IMG/VR virus record: IMGVR_UViG_3300042991_000280
Span: 1-20,521 of that record
Reading direction: 5' to 3' (one strand)
Origin: a virus
DNA: 20,521 nucleotides
In this document: positions 1,735-18,670 of the stretch, one piece after another
Layout: each line of letters opens with the position of its first letter
Position numbering within the stretch: the first letter of the stretch is position 1
Position numbers and translations under genes: made by a program
The notes under the pieces: model-generated
Seen by the model: the letters and a program-made list of their open reading frames with translations, nothing else
Databases searched by the model: none
Told to the model about the DNA's origin: nothing

Positions 1735-2436
1735 ATGATAAAAATAGAATTAACACCCGAAATTATTGCAGCATTAGACGTAGATGCAGCAAGAGCAGTA
1801 TTGACACAATTAACACGAGATTTAAAATCAGACGTTGACGAAAGAATCGTAAGAATAAAATCAGAATTGGCTGATGTGGATAAAGATTACCCACCAGTAG
1901 CACCACACATTATTCACACAAGGGAGCGTCAGAAAGACGAAATAAGCGAGGTTCAGTCACCAAAGCAGTCAGTATATCAAACAGATTCAGTGCCTGTAGA
2001 AGTGCTTAAAACGATTCAAGAGAGGTATGATAATGGTAATGAAAGTCTGCAAGGAATATGTAGAGATTACCCACAGTATAAATATCGCACCATATGGCAA
2101 CATATGACATTAAAAAAAAAAGTCAGAGAAGTAAAAACAATACCATACGTTGAGCCAAAAGAAGAACCTATGAAAATTGCTACGAGTCATATCAATAAGA
2201 AAGACTATTATGATTATGAACGTGAAGAAGGTATGAGTAAGAAAGAGGTAAAAGTATGGTTCAATACATTATTAGATAATCCTGCAATACCGATATGGCG
2301 AATAAACGAAATGTATCAGGGCATATATAATGACAAAGACAAATTAAGCACAGAAAAATTGGCAAAAAAGTATGGTACATCGGAAGCAAGAATAATAAGC
2401 ATTATAAATAAAAACTGTTATCAAGATGATGAGTAA
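1735..2436 (+). CDS. Hypothetical 233-aa protein with helix-turn-helix-like segments
   Basis: I do not recognise the family. The first 60 residues look helical. Residues of about 75-95 are a low-complexity Gln/Ser/Val linker. Two segments resemble helix-turn-helix units: one around EVLKTIQERYDNGNESLQGI...YRTIWQHM, and a C-terminal one around EKLAKKYGTSEARIISIINK. The second has the spacing of a recognition helix ('LAKKYGTSEARI'). A DNA-binding regulator or replication accessory protein would fit. Its end overlaps the next gene (ATGATGAGTAA), so it is probably translationally coupled to the sigma-like protein that follows, and the two may act together. Confidence 0.55.
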   Translation: MIKIELTPEIIAALDVDAARAVLTQLTRDLKSDVDERIVRIKSELADVDKDYPPVAPHIIHTRERQKDEISEVQSPKQSVYQTDSVPVEVLKTIQERYDNGNESLQGICRDYPQYKYRTIWQHMTLKKKVREVKTIPYVEPKEEPMKIATSHINKKDYYDYEREEGMSKKEVKVWFNTLLDNPAIPIWRINEMYQGIYNDKDKLSTEKLAKKYGTSEARIISIINKNCYQDDE

Positions 2437-3115
2437 TTATTGGACACACGAGGATAATCAGAGAGTAATGGAATTTTATTTGTGCTATACGGCAAGCACA
2501 TCAGCAATCACCAGACAGAGGATATTCAATATGTTAATGCCGAGATTCAATTATATGATAGGCACAGCACAGCAAATGATAATGAGTAGTTGGAATAAGG
2601 AAGATAAGGAAGAAGCGAAGCAGGATGTGTTGGTAAAGTTGTGGAATGTGCTATCACATAAGTTCGATAACGATAGAGCACAAGGAACACTGAACTTCCT
2701 ATGGACAGTAGTACGTAATAAGTTATATACAGTCACACGTGAACAGAATAGATGTAAGCCTAACATAGTATTGAACTCAGACTTACACTTAATGGGTGAA
2801 GAGTATATTGGAATGGGATATAGCATAGAAGACTACAGTGAGCCAGAAGAAGATGACGATAAATATATTGACATTGATGATATGAAGGAAGAGATATTCA
2901 AAGAACTGGACAGGAAGATACTCAAGCAACATAAGGTCAATCGTACTAATACGATATATCTGATACTATTGAAGGAATATTTAATAGCAAATGATTGTAA
3001 TGGCAAAGGCTTTCAAGAGTATATATGTGAGAAACTCGGCATCGATAGGAAATACTTTTATCAGGTTAATTACAAATTAAAAATTCGTTCAAGCGTATTT
3101 AATAATAAAAAGTAA
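2426..3115 (+). CDS. Phage sigma-70-like factor, probable late-gene activator
   Basis: Residues of about 35-110 resemble sigma-70 region 2. They contain KEEAKQDVLVKLWNVL, equivalent to the 'DLVQE.FLKLW' core-binding helix, then FDNDRAQGTLNFLWTVVRNKLYTVTREQNR, equivalent to 'FDP.RG.F..WL..I.RN...D..R', which contacts the -10 element. A very acidic linker (about 138-155) follows. A C-terminal helix-turn-helix-like part (about 195-222, FQEYICEKLGIDRKYFYQVN) could be a region 4 remnant. Such a protein would bind host RNA polymerase core and redirect it. The gene sits at the end of the regulatory block and directly precedes the first of seven GCGTATTTA motifs, which are the obvious candidate targets. 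The start may be 2426 or 2429. Confidence 0.7.
   Translation: MMSNYWTHEDNQRVMEFYLCYTASTSAITRQRIFNMLMPRFNYMIGTAQQMIMSSWNKEDKEEAKQDVLVKLWNVLSHKFDNDRAQGTLNFLWTVVRNKLYTVTREQNRCKPNIVLNSDLHLMGEEYIGMGYSIEDYSEPEEDDDKYIDIDDMKEEIFKELDRKILKQHKVNRTNTIYLILLKEYLIANDCNGKGFQEYICEKLGIDRKYFYQVNYKLKIRSSVFNNKK
3093..3102 (+). promoter_or_regulatory. Late-promoter-like motif copy 1 (GCGTATTTAA)
   Basis: GCGTATTTAA followed by an A-rich tail, 24 nt upstream of the ATG at 3117. It lies inside the last codons of the sigma-like gene. The identical spacing to the copies at 7462 and 8764 argues that it is more than coding coincidence. It may drive the lipoprotein and the terminase genes, since no copy lies directly before 3453. 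Confidence 0.5.
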
Positions 3116-3116
3116 T

Positions 3117-3329
3117 ATGAAAAAGATTTATATGATAATCGGATTGTTGCTGATAGTAGCAGCACTGAGTTGTGAGAAAGGTGAGGAATGTTATGAGTGT
3201 CAAGCAAAATATAAAGGTGGTTCTGGCTATGCTACACAAGAATACTGTGGTGATTGGGCAGGAGTAAGACAGATGGAAAGAAAAGCACCAAATAATAATT
3301 ATGAGAACTGGCGATGCTCACCAAAATAA
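3117..3329 (+). CDS. Small cysteine-containing lipoprotein, 70 aa
   Basis: The N-terminus is a classic lipoprotein signal: a basic start (MKKIY), a hydrophobic core (MIIGLLLIVAAL) and a lipobox-like ALSC with Cys19 as the lipidated residue. The residues after it (EKGEE) include acidic positions, like the surface-export signals of Bacteroidota lipoproteins. The mature part is about 52 residues with four further cysteines, so two disulfides are possible in the periplasm or on the surface. It lies between regulatory and packaging genes and follows motif copy 1. Phage-encoded lipoproteins often mask receptors or block superinfection (T5 Llp is the known precedent), and I infer such a role with low confidence. 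Lipoprotein status is much surer than function. Confidence 0.7.
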   Translation: MKKIYMIIGLLLIVAALSCEKGEECYECQAKYKGGSGYATQEYCGDWAGVRQMERKAPNNNYENWRCSPK

Positions 3330-3452
3330 AATAAGCCGCCCGTCTTTGAAAAAATTATAAAAGTCTGGATACCACGCCCCCAAAAGAGGCTTAACGAAAA
3401 TAGAAACATAGGCGGGTGTCAAAAAATTAGACACTTTATAAAAAATTATACT
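3330..3452 (+). other. GC-rich structured intergenic region (candidate cos/pac site or RNA element)
   Basis: This 123-nt gene-free region is far richer in G and C clusters than its surroundings. AAGCC (3333-3337) and TCTTT (3343-3347) can pair with GGCTT (3388-3392) and AAAGA (3383-3387). The bulge between them, GCCCG (3338-3342), can pair with CGGGT (3413-3417), so a pseudoknot is possible. Competing pairings exist, such as CCGCC 3336-3340 with GGCGG 3411-3415. A further small hairpin is GTGTC 3416-3420 with GACAC 3430-3434. Its place just before the terminase genes is where cos sites often lie in HK97-like phages. Function is unproven. Confidence 0.4.
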
Positions 3453-8685: not shown

Positions 8686-8728
8686 TTACTTCTCTTTCCT
8701 TTCTATTACAGATTTTATACTTCAAAAG

Positions 8729-8760
8729 AAGCACTGCCATTCGGTAGTGCTTTTTGTTTT
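8729..8760 (+). terminator. Intrinsic terminator after the capsid gene
   Basis: AAGCACTGCC (8729-8738) pairs with GGTAGTGCTT (8743-8752) through a 4-nt loop (8739-8742) with one G-T wobble, and is followed by a T-rich tract to 8760. The next motif copy starts 4 nt later, so transcription ends here and probably restarts. Confidence 0.85.
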
Positions 8761-9416: not shown

Positions 9417-9895
9417 TGCCAGATTTAACATTAGAAGTAATAAACGACAAAGAGTTACTAAAACTTTTTAATGAACTGATACCAAAAGTACAGAGTAAAA
9501 TCATTGCTGGTGGGTTCAGAACAGCAAGTAAGATTATACTCGACCAAGCGAAGATTAACTTCCACGCTACAAAAAAGGGTAAAAGTCGTACTGGTTATGC
9601 TGGCATTAATTCGATGTTCAAATCAAAACCACTTCGAGCACCAAAGATAGGTGCTGTTGTTGGGTTAAGTTCAAAAGAAGGTTATAAATATAGGTTCGAA
9701 AACTACGGTACAGAAGATAGATTTTATATGACAAAGAATAATAAAAAGCACGAGACTGGTAAAATAAAGGCTACGAAATTTTTCGATAATGCAGTAGAAG
9801 CAAAACAAGAAGCAGCAAATAGAGCAATATCAGAAGCAATTGTAGATTCATTAAAAAAGACTATTATAAAATATGATAAAAAATACAGATTATAA
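9416..9895 (+). CDS. HK97 gp10-like tail-completion/neck protein
   Basis: A 159-aa protein with the HK97 gp10 family outline. An N-terminal helical part (KELLKLFNELIPKVQSKIIAGGFRTASKIILDQAKIN) is followed by a basic linker (KKGKSRTGYAGINSMFKSK). Then come the strand pair PKIGAVVGLSSKEGYKYRFENYGTEDRF and the C-terminal helix. The fold is seen in tail-tube terminator-neighbourhood proteins and acts at the head-tail interface. It overlaps its neighbours on both sides by a single base (TAATG), so it is part of a tightly coupled connector unit. Confidence 0.85.
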   Translation: MPDLTLEVINDKELLKLFNELIPKVQSKIIAGGFRTASKIILDQAKINFHATKKGKSRTGYAGINSMFKSKPLRAPKIGAVVGLSSKEGYKYRFENYGTEDRFYMTKNNKKHETGKIKATKFFDNAVEAKQEAANRAISEAIVDSLKKTIIKYDKKYRL

Positions 9896-11124: not shown

Positions 11125-11159
11125 AAAAAATGGTGATTCCACAGTCACCATTTTTTTTT
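11125..11159 (+). terminator. Intrinsic terminator after the major tail gene
   Basis: ATGGTGATT pairs with AGTCACCAT over a CCAC loop (11139-11142), with one T-G wobble. The stem is extended by A6 and a 9-nt T run (11151-11159). This gives a bidirectional-looking but + strand-positioned terminator. The next motif starts 18 nt later. Confidence 0.87.
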
Positions 11160-15499: not shown

Positions 15500-17503
15500 A
15501 TGGCAATAACAATAAAACAAACAGAATTAATACCAGTACGTAGAGACGGGCAAATCGTTTCAACGCAAGTAGTATATGGTGGTAGTGGTGGTGGGGCAGG
15601 TGGTGCTGGAACAACATATCTCGCTGGCACAAACATTTGTATTGGTGGTGATAGTAGTATTAATGTATGCGGGACAGTAGCATCAGCATCAAATGCCTTG
15701 GCATTATGTGGTTGTGTTCCTTCGTGCTTTTTAGGAGCAACTGCTTGTGCTTATGATAGTGCAAGATTAAATAACTGCGTACCTGCTGATATTACTTCAA
15801 ACCTTACTTCAGGACAGGTATTATATTATGACGGTACGACAATTCGTTCTTGTACTGTTACAAGCGGTGGTGGTAGCCTTGATGCTCTTTCAGATGTTGT
15901 TATAGCAACACCAGCAACGAATCAAATACTTCAATATAATGGCAGCACGTGGTGTAATACAAATACTACGAATATTACTACGAATGTCAGTAGTGGGCAA
16001 CTTTTATGTTATAATGGAACTACAATAACGGGTGTTACAGCATCAACATTAAGTGTAAAAAATAGTACTTGTTTAAATGGACAATTAGCATCATATTATT
16101 CAGTAGCATCACACACTCACAATTGTTATGATGGTACTTTTTGTGCAACAACATTAAGTGGTGGAACATTATGTGCAAGAACTTGTATATGTTCTGGTGG
16201 TGATATAAATATCCCTTTAGGATGTTATATCAAATTAAATACAAATGCTGCTATGAGACAAACCAGCAACTTGATGCAATTCGGTTGGATAGGACAAGGG
16301 CATTATTTTCAGACTGGAATAGCAGACCCATTTTTAGGTTTATATAAAAGTAGTGCGCTTGTATTAGGTGTTACGACAGATGGTAATACTTATATTCCTT
16401 CAACGAAATGTTTTTTTGTTGGACAAACAACTGGTGCTGAAAAATTAGACGTAAGTGGTAATATCAAAGCAAGTGGATGTATAATAACACCTGTAATAAA
16501 AATAACTAATGGTGCTGCTGCAGGATGTGTATTATCATCGGCTGCGGATGGAACAGCATCGTGGACAACACCTACAGGTGGAGTAACTACACTTGATGGT
16601 TTATCTGACGTAGTTATAAGTGGAACACCTGCAACGAATCAGGTAATTCAATACAATGGTTCAACGTGGTGTAATACAGCAGTATGTGATGCAAGTACGA
16701 ATGTTACTTTTTGTAATATATGTGCAACAGGTGCATTAAATATGGGTGGTTCATATATTAATTGTACTGGAAACTTCGAATTACGTGGTACTGGAACTGC
16801 TGATTCAACAGCCGTAAGGGTATTCGCTACAGGTGGTAATTTATATTTACAAAATGGTTCGGGTGATACTACAATTTTTAGAAGTAAGACTGGTGGGCAG
16901 ATTATGTGTATTACGAATGCTGGTAATTTAACAGTCGCTAATAATTTACTTGCAAACTGCTTAAAATTAAACGGAGCATCAACACCTTATATTACGGCAA
17001 GTGCATCGGCAACACAAATTTATTATGACTTGAACTTATATAATACCTTAAAATTTACTGGTACTGATTTAAGTACAATTGGTAGCGGTATTATTAATGG
17101 TAGTGGTGTTACATTACAGCATAATGGTTCAGCAGCATTAGCAACACTAACAAATGGTGCTTGTATTTATGGTTGTGGCTTCGCTACAGACTTCATAGGT
17201 AGTTCAGATAGAAGATTAAAAACTGATATCAATCCTATTAATAATGCGTTGGGAATAGTGGATAAAATGCAAGGAAATTATTTTAAGTTCAATGCTGAAA
17301 ATACTTGTAATGTGGGATTTATAGCACAAGATGTTCTGGAAATATTGCCAGAAGTGGTGGCGTTAACTGATGGATATTATGGAATAAAATATGATAAAAT
17401 CACAGCAGTACTGGTAGAAGCGGTAAAAGAATTAAAAAAATGCAATAGTGATTTACAGAAACAAATATTCGCATTAGAAGATAGGTTTATTAATAACGTG
17501 TAA
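15500..17503 (+). CDS. Tail fibre with C-terminal S74 self-cleaving chaperone domain
   Basis: A 667-aa host-recognition fibre. The N-terminus (AITIKQTELIPVRRDGQIVS) leads to a Gly-rich hinge, then a long beta-rich shaft with many Cys (31 in total by eye). A 28-29-residue repeat, LD.LSDVV...TPATNQ..QYNGSTWCNT, occurs at about 127-154 and 365-393. The C-terminus (from about 569) is the intramolecular chaperone (S74 peptidase) domain. Its start SSDRRLKTDINP gives the dyad Ser569 and Lys574, five residues apart as in endosialidase-type chaperones. It then runs GFIAQDVLEILPEVV..., GIKYDKITAVLVEAVKEL and a coiled coil. It would fold trimeric fibres and then cut itself off before Ser569. Confidence 0.9.
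   Translation: MAITIKQTELIPVRRDGQIVSTQVVYGGSGGGAGGAGTTYLAGTNICIGGDSSINVCGTVASASNALALCGCVPSCFLGATACAYDSARLNNCVPADITSNLTSGQVLYYDGTTIRSCTVTSGGGSLDALSDVVIATPATNQILQYNGSTWCNTNTTNITTNVSSGQLLCYNGTTITGVTASTLSVKNSTCLNGQLASYYSVASHTHNCYDGTFCATTLSGGTLCARTCICSGGDINIPLGCYIKLNTNAAMRQTSNLMQFGWIGQGHYFQTGIADPFLGLYKSSALVLGVTTDGNTYIPSTKCFFVGQTTGAEKLDVSGNIKASGCIITPVIKITNGAAAGCVLSSAADGTASWTTPTGGVTTLDGLSDVVISGTPATNQVIQYNGSTWCNTAVCDASTNVTFCNICATGALNMGGSYINCTGNFELRGTGTADSTAVRVFATGGNLYLQNGSGDTTIFRSKTGGQIMCITNAGNLTVANNLLANCLKLNGASTPYITASASATQIYYDLNLYNTLKFTGTDLSTIGSGIINGSGVTLQHNGSAALATLTNGACIYGCGFATDFIGSSDRRLKTDINPINNALGIVDKMQGNYFKFNAENTCNVGFIAQDVLEILPEVVALTDGYYGIKYDKITAVLVEAVKELKKCNSDLQKQIFALEDRFINNV
15875..15960 (+). 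repeat. Fibre-shaft repeat, copy 1
   Basis: Encodes residues about 127-154 of the fibre (LDALSDVVIA...NGSTWCNT). Copy 2 lies at 16592-16678. The protein repeats are nearly identical, and the DNA differs mainly in synonymous places. Confidence 0.75.
16592..16678 (+). repeat. Fibre-shaft repeat, copy 2
   Basis: Encodes residues about 365-393 (LDGLSDVVISG...NGSTWCNT), the partner of copy 1. It suggests an internal duplication that lengthened the shaft. Confidence 0.75.
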
Positions 17504-17505
17504 TT

Positions 17506-18129
17506 ATGGCAATGCCGAGTAGTGGTAGTATAGGTTTAGTTAGTGCCCCACAAACGTGTGGTAGTATTGCTTGTGCCGTATGTGGAACAAATGCTTCGCC
17601 ACCGTATTCATTAAATACTCTGAGTGCTGCAGCAGGAAAATCAGCACCACATTCAATGTTGGAGTTTTATGGTTATAGTCCTGCTCCTACGTGGAAGACA
17701 GTATATTTTTCAAATATAAGTTCAACGTGTCCGAACTACGATGATATATGTGAATGTACTTGTGCTTGTTTAACAACGAGTAGTGCTATGGCAAGTGGTG
17801 ACTGCTATTTTCCTGCGTTCAGTTGGAATTTTTATAAGCCAACAACAGCAGCACCGACACCAGTGTGCGTGCATCTTTTATGCAATGGTGTTACTAAATA
17901 TTGTTGTGGATTTATTAGTAAGACAGCATATAGTTGCAGTGGTACGTGGGCAGCATTCAGCGTAGATTCAAATGATTGTATTCACGCAATAACACACGCT
18001 GAGATACTGACGGATTGTGTAGTAGGTTCAACAGCAACAGTTACATTATGTGCAGTCAACGTATGTGTTGGTTGCTATTGCGTAGGTAGTCCCGCAACAG
18101 TATATTCAGAGACTTGTAGTAGTGCATAA
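17506..18129 (+). CDS. Cysteine-rich fibre-associated protein, 207 aa, paralogue 1
   Basis: The start MAMPSSGSIGLVSAPQTCGS and the later SLNTLSAAAGKSAPHSMLEFYGYSP have the 'P.SG.IsL..i..e.g...l.sl...fyG' form common at the N-terminus of phage tail proteins. The remainder is a beta-rich domain with the clustered Cys motif STCPNYDDICECTCACL. By eye it holds 21 Cys in 207 residues (about 10%). The cluster and the surrounding ~60 residues match the next gene closely, so they are tandem paralogues. Likely an adhesin or fibre-tip protein exposed on the virion. Whether the thiols are oxidised, bind metal or stay free is unknown. Its start is two bases past the fibre stop. Confidence 0.65.
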   Translation: MAMPSSGSIGLVSAPQTCGSIACAVCGTNASPPYSLNTLSAAAGKSAPHSMLEFYGYSPAPTWKTVYFSNISSTCPNYDDICECTCACLTTSSAMASGDCYFPAFSWNFYKPTTAAPTPVCVHLLCNGVTKYCCGFISKTAYSCSGTWAAFSVDSNDCIHAITHAEILTDCVVGSTATVTLCAVNVCVGCYCVGSPATVYSETCSSA

Positions 18130-18160
18130 AAATTATAAAAAAATATAAAAAATTATAAAT

Positions 18161-18670
18161 ATGGGAATAATAATGTTAGGTGGAAGAGCGGTAATGTTAG
18201 GTGGACAAGCATTAAGCATTAGTACTACGATTACTTATAAGGCAATAGACTTTTGTGATATAAGTACTACGTGTCCGAACTATGATTCGATATACGAATG
18301 TACTTGTGGATGTTTACGTTCTGTTGCTGCTATGTCAGCAGGAGAATGTTATGGCGTTTGTATTGGATATAATATATATAAAGCAGCATCGGATACTCCA
18401 TATGAAGAATATGTTGCAATAATATGTAATAGTACTACTATTCGTTGTTGTTCAATTATTGAACAGACAACAGCAAGTGCAAACGGTATATTTACTGCCT
18501 TCAATGTATGTCACGGTGATGATGTTCACGTAGTTACATTCGCAGAAATAGATGTTCCCGATAATGGTGGTGCATATTCTTGTGCAACAGTAAGCACATT
18601 AACACCACTTAGTGGAAATTTTTGCTATGGAACAAATCAATATCAACGTTCAATTACTTGTGCATATTAA
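18161..18670 (+). CDS. Cysteine-rich fibre-associated protein, 169 aa, paralogue 2
   Basis: Shares with the preceding gene the block IDFCDISTTCPNYDSIYECTCGCL followed by AAMSAGECY (compare ISSTCPNYDDICECTCACL, SAMASGDCY). DNA identity is visible there (CGTGTCCGAACTA in both). By eye it has 14 Cys in 169 residues. The N-terminus differs: MGIIMLGGRAVMLGGQALS is Gly-rich and hydrophobic, with a repeated MLGG. The tail of the protein is beta-rich. It lacks the 'P.SG' start of paralogue 1, so one gene may have swapped or lost its attachment domain. The 31-nt gap before it is almost pure A/T and holds no late motif. Confidence 0.65.
   Translation: MGIIMLGGRAVMLGGQALSISTTITYKAIDFCDISTTCPNYDSIYECTCGCLRSVAAMSAGECYGVCIGYNIYKAASDTPYEEYVAIICNSTTIRCCSIIEQTTASANGIFTAFNVCHGDDVHVVTFAEIDVPDNGGAYSCATVSTLTPLSGNFCYGTNQYQRSITCAY

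Follow-up and report, generated by a model that had tools for sequence, protein, structure and literature searches.

A putative phage late sigma factor and its candidate single-element promoters in a small phage of Bacteroidota

The question raised by this locus is whether a sigma-like gene lying ahead of the structural genes of a phage encodes the protein that reads a short word, GCGTATTTA, repeated in front of these genes. The DNA analysed here, referred to as the window, is the whole of a 20,521-base virus record, which was treated as a fragment and which stems from a small phage of Bacteroidota; gene names within it (portal, capsid, connector, fibre) are based on Pfam, and the features of the locus are collected in Table 1. 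An initial annotation had proposed that the sigma-like protein, together with host RNA polymerase, recognises this word, and that its gene, the last one before the late block, forms part of a self-contained late-transcription switch.

Table 1 Features of the sigma gene and of the repeated motif in the window.
Feature	Positions	Strand	Remarks
Phage sigma factor gene (putative)	2426..3115	+	229 aa; sequence, profile, predicted fold
Sigma region 2 (residues 8-108), five predicted helices	2447..2749	+	AlphaFold pLDDT mostly 80-93
C-terminal helix-turn-helix domain (residues 150-221), predicted	2873..3088	+	Separate model, pLDDT 91.8
Motif copy 1, GCGTATTTA	3093..3101	+	Within sigma gene, upstream of gene 3117-3329; doubtful
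Motif copy 2 with downstream AA	5438..5452	+	Before portal gene 5461
Motif copy 3 with downstream AA	7462..7476	+	Before major capsid gene 7486
Motif copy 4 with downstream AA	8764..8778	+	Before head-tail connector gene 8788
Motif copy 5 with downstream AA	10581..10595	+	Before gene 10625 (tail tube candidate)
Motif copy 6 with downstream AA	11177..11191	+	Before gene 11204
Motif copy 7 with downstream AA	18691..18705	+	Before gene 18733 (gp80-like fibre protein)
Intrinsic terminator	8726..8755	+	Ends 8 nt before motif copy 4
Intrinsic terminator	11125..11156	+	Ends 20 nt before motif copy 6

A divergent sigma factor

The residues on which the region-2-like block had been postulated are present in the reading frame (KEEAKQDVLVKLW at 61-73 and RN at 97-98). 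Taken as a single sequence, the protein matched Pfam Sigma70_r2 only below the cut-off (E 0.019) and PHROG 1740, annotated as 'RNA polymerase sigma factor', with an E-value of 8e-6. Single-sequence searches otherwise gave little: none of the viral contigs searched contained a relative, tblastn against annotated phages returned one weak phage match and nothing convincing, and the best E-value in the PDB was 1.5. Homologues were reached via relatives of TerL, in which they occupy the same place and share 23-54% identity with the window protein. Of 393 Bacteroidales genomes compared with a family profile built from nine such relatives of the sigma protein, 69 contained candidate sigma factors, with a best E-value of 7e-8 outside the prophage. 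These candidates are chromosomal and of the ECF type, and Sigma70_r2 and r4_2 were both found in all three of the matched loci that were translated. The phage family itself is rare in sequenced genomes: in 395 genomes at phylum level and 117 at family level, its one match (E 1e-12) was the metagenome-assembled genome (MAG) that already contributed the relative L029.

Comparison of the AlphaFold model with known structures, a check that the initial annotation had suggested, led to the same assignment. The top structural match of region 2 was T4 gp55 (7d7c_F, Z 10.9), and sigma-E (4lup_A) was matched with Z 9.8 and 2.4 A over 90 residues. Foldseek E-values were modest (best 0.027), and a Z near 10 is by itself not decisive for helical folds; weight is rather carried by the uniform identity of the matches, sigma chains in all 50 matches listed. 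Residues 8-108 are thus predicted to fold as sigma region 2. Together with the profile, it confirms the proposed block and makes the 229-aa protein a divergent ECF-like sigma factor, with a firm likeness in region 2. The rest of the chain is predicted to consist of a disordered linker (residues 110-148) and the helix-turn-helix (HTH) domain. The HTH-like C-terminus of the initial annotation is therefore borne out as a predicted fold (pLDDT 92), whereas its assignment to sigma region 4 stays tentative: the model matched sigma3, sigma4 and other HTH proteins with Z at most 5.9, Pfam returned no region-4 match, and the predicted domain is sigma3/sigma4-like at best. In the sigma homologues of two relatives (L024, 22-900; L025, 87-848) the chain is extended at the C-terminus by a further DNA-binding domain, of the I-HmuI NUMOD-like type (PF22083, E 3e-9).

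A repeated motif before particle-building genes

The word GCGTATTTA occurs seven times on the plus strand of the window and never on the minus strand, against 0.19 copies expected, and seven copies were never reached in 100 shuffles. Six of the seven stand clearly in front of particle-building genes. Scans for sigma-70-type and Bacteroides-type promoters gave no more than chance.

Copy 1 lies, as had been described, in the last codons of the sigma gene, reading across AGC GTA TTT AAT. Its position holds, but its proposed role as a switch element is weakened because it overlaps conserved Val-Phe-Asn codons, which are kept in L013 where the same position reads CAGTATTTA, and because its downstream AAA is imperfect. 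It is the weakest copy and may be largely a by-product of these codons. The placement of the sigma gene as the last gene before the late block is likewise a weaker point, since the terS-terL operon directly after the sigma gene lacks a good copy and the boundary is therefore not sharp.

Could the motif act in the RNA, as a translation enhancer or a processing site? A-rich leaders increase translation in Bacteroidota (PMC6847099), and start codons are often found 14-18 nt after the motif. This distance nevertheless ranges from 14 to about 35 nt, the motif follows terminators, and it is absent from tightly coupled genes, being found at 6 of 9 genes with gaps of at least 30 nt versus 1 of 11 other genes (p 0.017). 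An action in the RNA is thus highly improbable.

Conservation of the motif among relatives

An unbiased k-mer search for words over-represented before open reading frames, made with no reference to GCGTATTTA, placed NN-GTATTTA among the leading words in most TerL relatives. The signal common to relatives with the sigma gene is NN-GTATTTA-N4-AAA at syntenic places, namely before portal, capsid, connector and tail genes. The first dinucleotide of the word is lineage-specific: GC in the window, L008, L011 and L013, TC in L009, TT in L014/L029, L015 and L023, TA in L017, L019 and L022, AA in L020, and AC or CC in L025. Across 68 sites selected by the core GTATTTA, the AAA is fixed 4 nt after the core (59, 65 and 63 of the sites at its three positions), and no column between -50 and -14 holds notable information, that is, no -35 element was seen. 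In 15 records, 70 copies of NNGTATTTA-N4-AA were counted on the late strand and two on the opposite one, with about 4.5 in shuffles. At 19 of 66 sites, compared with 20 of 3000 random places, a terminator was found in the preceding 70 nt; such post-terminator placement looks like that of the promoter of an insulated unit.

The MAG mentioned above (L029), from a member of the Bacteroidales, offers a view of the motif in a host chromosome. Here the sigma gene and the sites lie within a prophage flanked by host genes on both sides, at the end of which is a 405-aa gene that we take to be integrase-like. The motif is AT-rich, and its CGTA is similar to the -10 words of ECF sigma factors, as would be expected if it were a consensus promoter of the host, used with the primary sigma or with an ECF sigma of the host. 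Yet throughout the 4 Mb of this MAG, TTGTATTTATAANAAA as a strict pattern was counted six times, always within the prophage and on one strand, which argues that the word is not a host consensus. Moreover, the word differs between related phages, and neither element of the Bacteroides promoter consensus (TAnnTTTG at -7 and TTTG near -33; PMC7366714) was seen at the motif sites. Such a host consensus is accordingly very improbable and already largely refuted.

Linkage of the sigma factor to the motif

In the 11 motif-bearing records whose genes upstream of terL were compared, the sigma family is present in all 11, a terS-like gene in 10 and any other gene in at most three, although some of these records hold few genes in this region, so that absence of a gene is partly limited by coverage. 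The sigma family is the sole regulator upstream of terL common to all of them. Relatives without a detected sigma mostly also lack the word; one exception is L020, with the motif AAGTATTTAT and no sigma match in its 21.5-kb fragment. Co-variation of sigma and motif, which had been put forward as a further check, was observed: the word changes with lineage, and in L080/L081, whose sigma is a distant homologue (E about 1e-22), a different word, CAATACTTA, is found. Such parallel change is what any reader carried by the phages would produce, because motif and sigma have a single phage phylogeny in common. In L026/L027, more distant TerL relatives, another word (TGTCTATAT, six copies each) precedes late genes, and no sigma was found within these fragments.

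Residues 102-105 were considered as a determinant of specificity. They read TxxR in the sigmas of the window, L013 and L009, where the second motif base is C, and TK/TN/TY-hydrophobic in most sigmas with T or A at this base; with exceptions in L024, L025 and L069, the cases are too few for such a claim.

Upstream of the sigma gene, the window encodes a KilAC-like antirepressor (1171-1560) and then a protein with a Mor-like C-terminus (1735-2436); among the compared records, relatives of either were found only in L009. Alternatively, then, the motif might be a phage promoter element read by another phage protein, such as the Mor-like one, in concert with a host sigma. The C-terminus of that protein does show weak matches to Mor and 'late transcriptional activator' families. 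Its family, however, occurs in 2 of the 11 motif-bearing records, versus 11 of 11 for the sigma, and the motif consists of one -10-like word that is not palindromic and has no operator upstream, which renders a different phage-encoded reader improbable. It is common for phages to encode proteins that bind the core polymerase and inhibit transcription in the host, and the sigma-like fold could in principle serve to appropriate or block the host polymerase instead of reading the motif. The retention of both region 2 and the HTH domain and their tie to the motif across phages speak against such a use, which we regard as most improbable.

Taken together, the fold and profile, the presence of the sigma in 11 records, the parallel divergence and the promoter-like placement support the proposal that the protein reads GCGTATTTA before late genes. 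It is very probably a phage late sigma factor for one -10-type element, akin to gp36 of phage phiEco32 and to gp55 but with its C-terminal HTH kept. As to core binding, motif recognition, start site and late timing, we infer that region 2 would dock onto the host core RNA polymerase and read the single element, GCGTATTTA in the window phage, without use of a -35 element. Transcription would start about 5-7 nt downstream of the motif, at the conserved AAA, leaving short leaders before the portal, capsid, connector, tail and fibre genes, with several late units presumably insulated by a terminator just before their own promoter.

Promoter-like sites were also seen upstream of the sigma gene region in three relatives (L029 at 8024 and 7486, L023 at 7139, L022 at 1498), in front of the operon or gene adjoining the sigma gene; in L029 and L023 their first dinucleotide deviates. 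These sites give a hint that in the three phages the sigma factor may activate its own gene, and no site of this type was found at the sigma gene in the window.

Comparison with known phage sigma factors

Phage phiEco32 encodes phi32_gp36, which serves middle and late genes from the single-element promoter tAATGTAtA with starts 6-8 bp downstream, and related sigma factors of which have changed promoters (PMC8948821). Judged from the description of gp36, both are phage sigma factors with single-element promoters and no -35, and it is by likeness to these starts that the AAA is proposed as the start site in the window phage. The systems differ in that phi32_gp36 is reported without region 4 homology (PMC8948821) whereas the window sigma has an HTH domain predicted after region 2, and also in host phylum, in the word itself and in the temperate relative of about 22 kb (L029). 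In phage 7-11, the late sigma SaPh711_gp47 likewise combines region 2 with a DNA-binding domain at the C-terminus, but its promoters are bipartite (GTAAtg-(16)-aCTA; PMC8948821), while no conserved upstream element was seen for the window phage. Bacteroidales ECF sigmas share region 2 homology by profile; the window protein is distinguished from them by being phage-encoded, by its long disordered linker and divergent C-terminal domain and by the missing -35 element.

The closest structural likeness is to T4 gp55, a sigma-domain-2 protein that reads an 8-bp, -10-only late promoter (PMC2988020). In T4 the sigma4 mimic is a protein of its own, gp33, and a sliding clamp takes part as well (PMC2988020), whereas both domains stand in one chain in the window sigma, which is not known to depend on a clamp and whose predicted folded HTH sets it apart from the gp55 type with its clamp-binding tail and no sigma4-like domain. 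Perhaps the protein is a natural single-chain counterpart of gp55 plus gp33, in which region 2 would read the promoter and the HTH would hold the beta flap without reading a -35 element; we offer this tentatively and consider it rather doubtful. A review of T4 asks why a fused late sigma is absent in nature (PMC2988020).

Other features of the window

The sigma gene is separated from the terS-like gene by a conserved element that contains a run of C and a run of G (3374-3420; ataccacgcccccaaaagaggcttaacg...ggcgggtgtc), and similar stretches occur in L009, L013, L017, L023, L029 and L081. Its position adjoining the terminase, together with an HNH gene at 9895, suggests a candidate cos or pac site. 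An Rfam search gave no match. The tail-fibre-like proteins at 15500-18670 are very rich in cysteine (4.6, 10.1 and 8.3 percent), unlike the capsid and tape-measure proteins with none, a contrast that appears to exist also in the L029 prophage.

Implications for phages of Bacteroidota

In a limited look through the open-access literature, no description of a phage sigma together with its late promoters was found for Bacteroidota. With about ten sigma-promoter pairs whose members have diverged in parallel, the family would allow swaps that test how region 2 reads the -10 word, and late promoters of these phages could readily be predicted from the motif.
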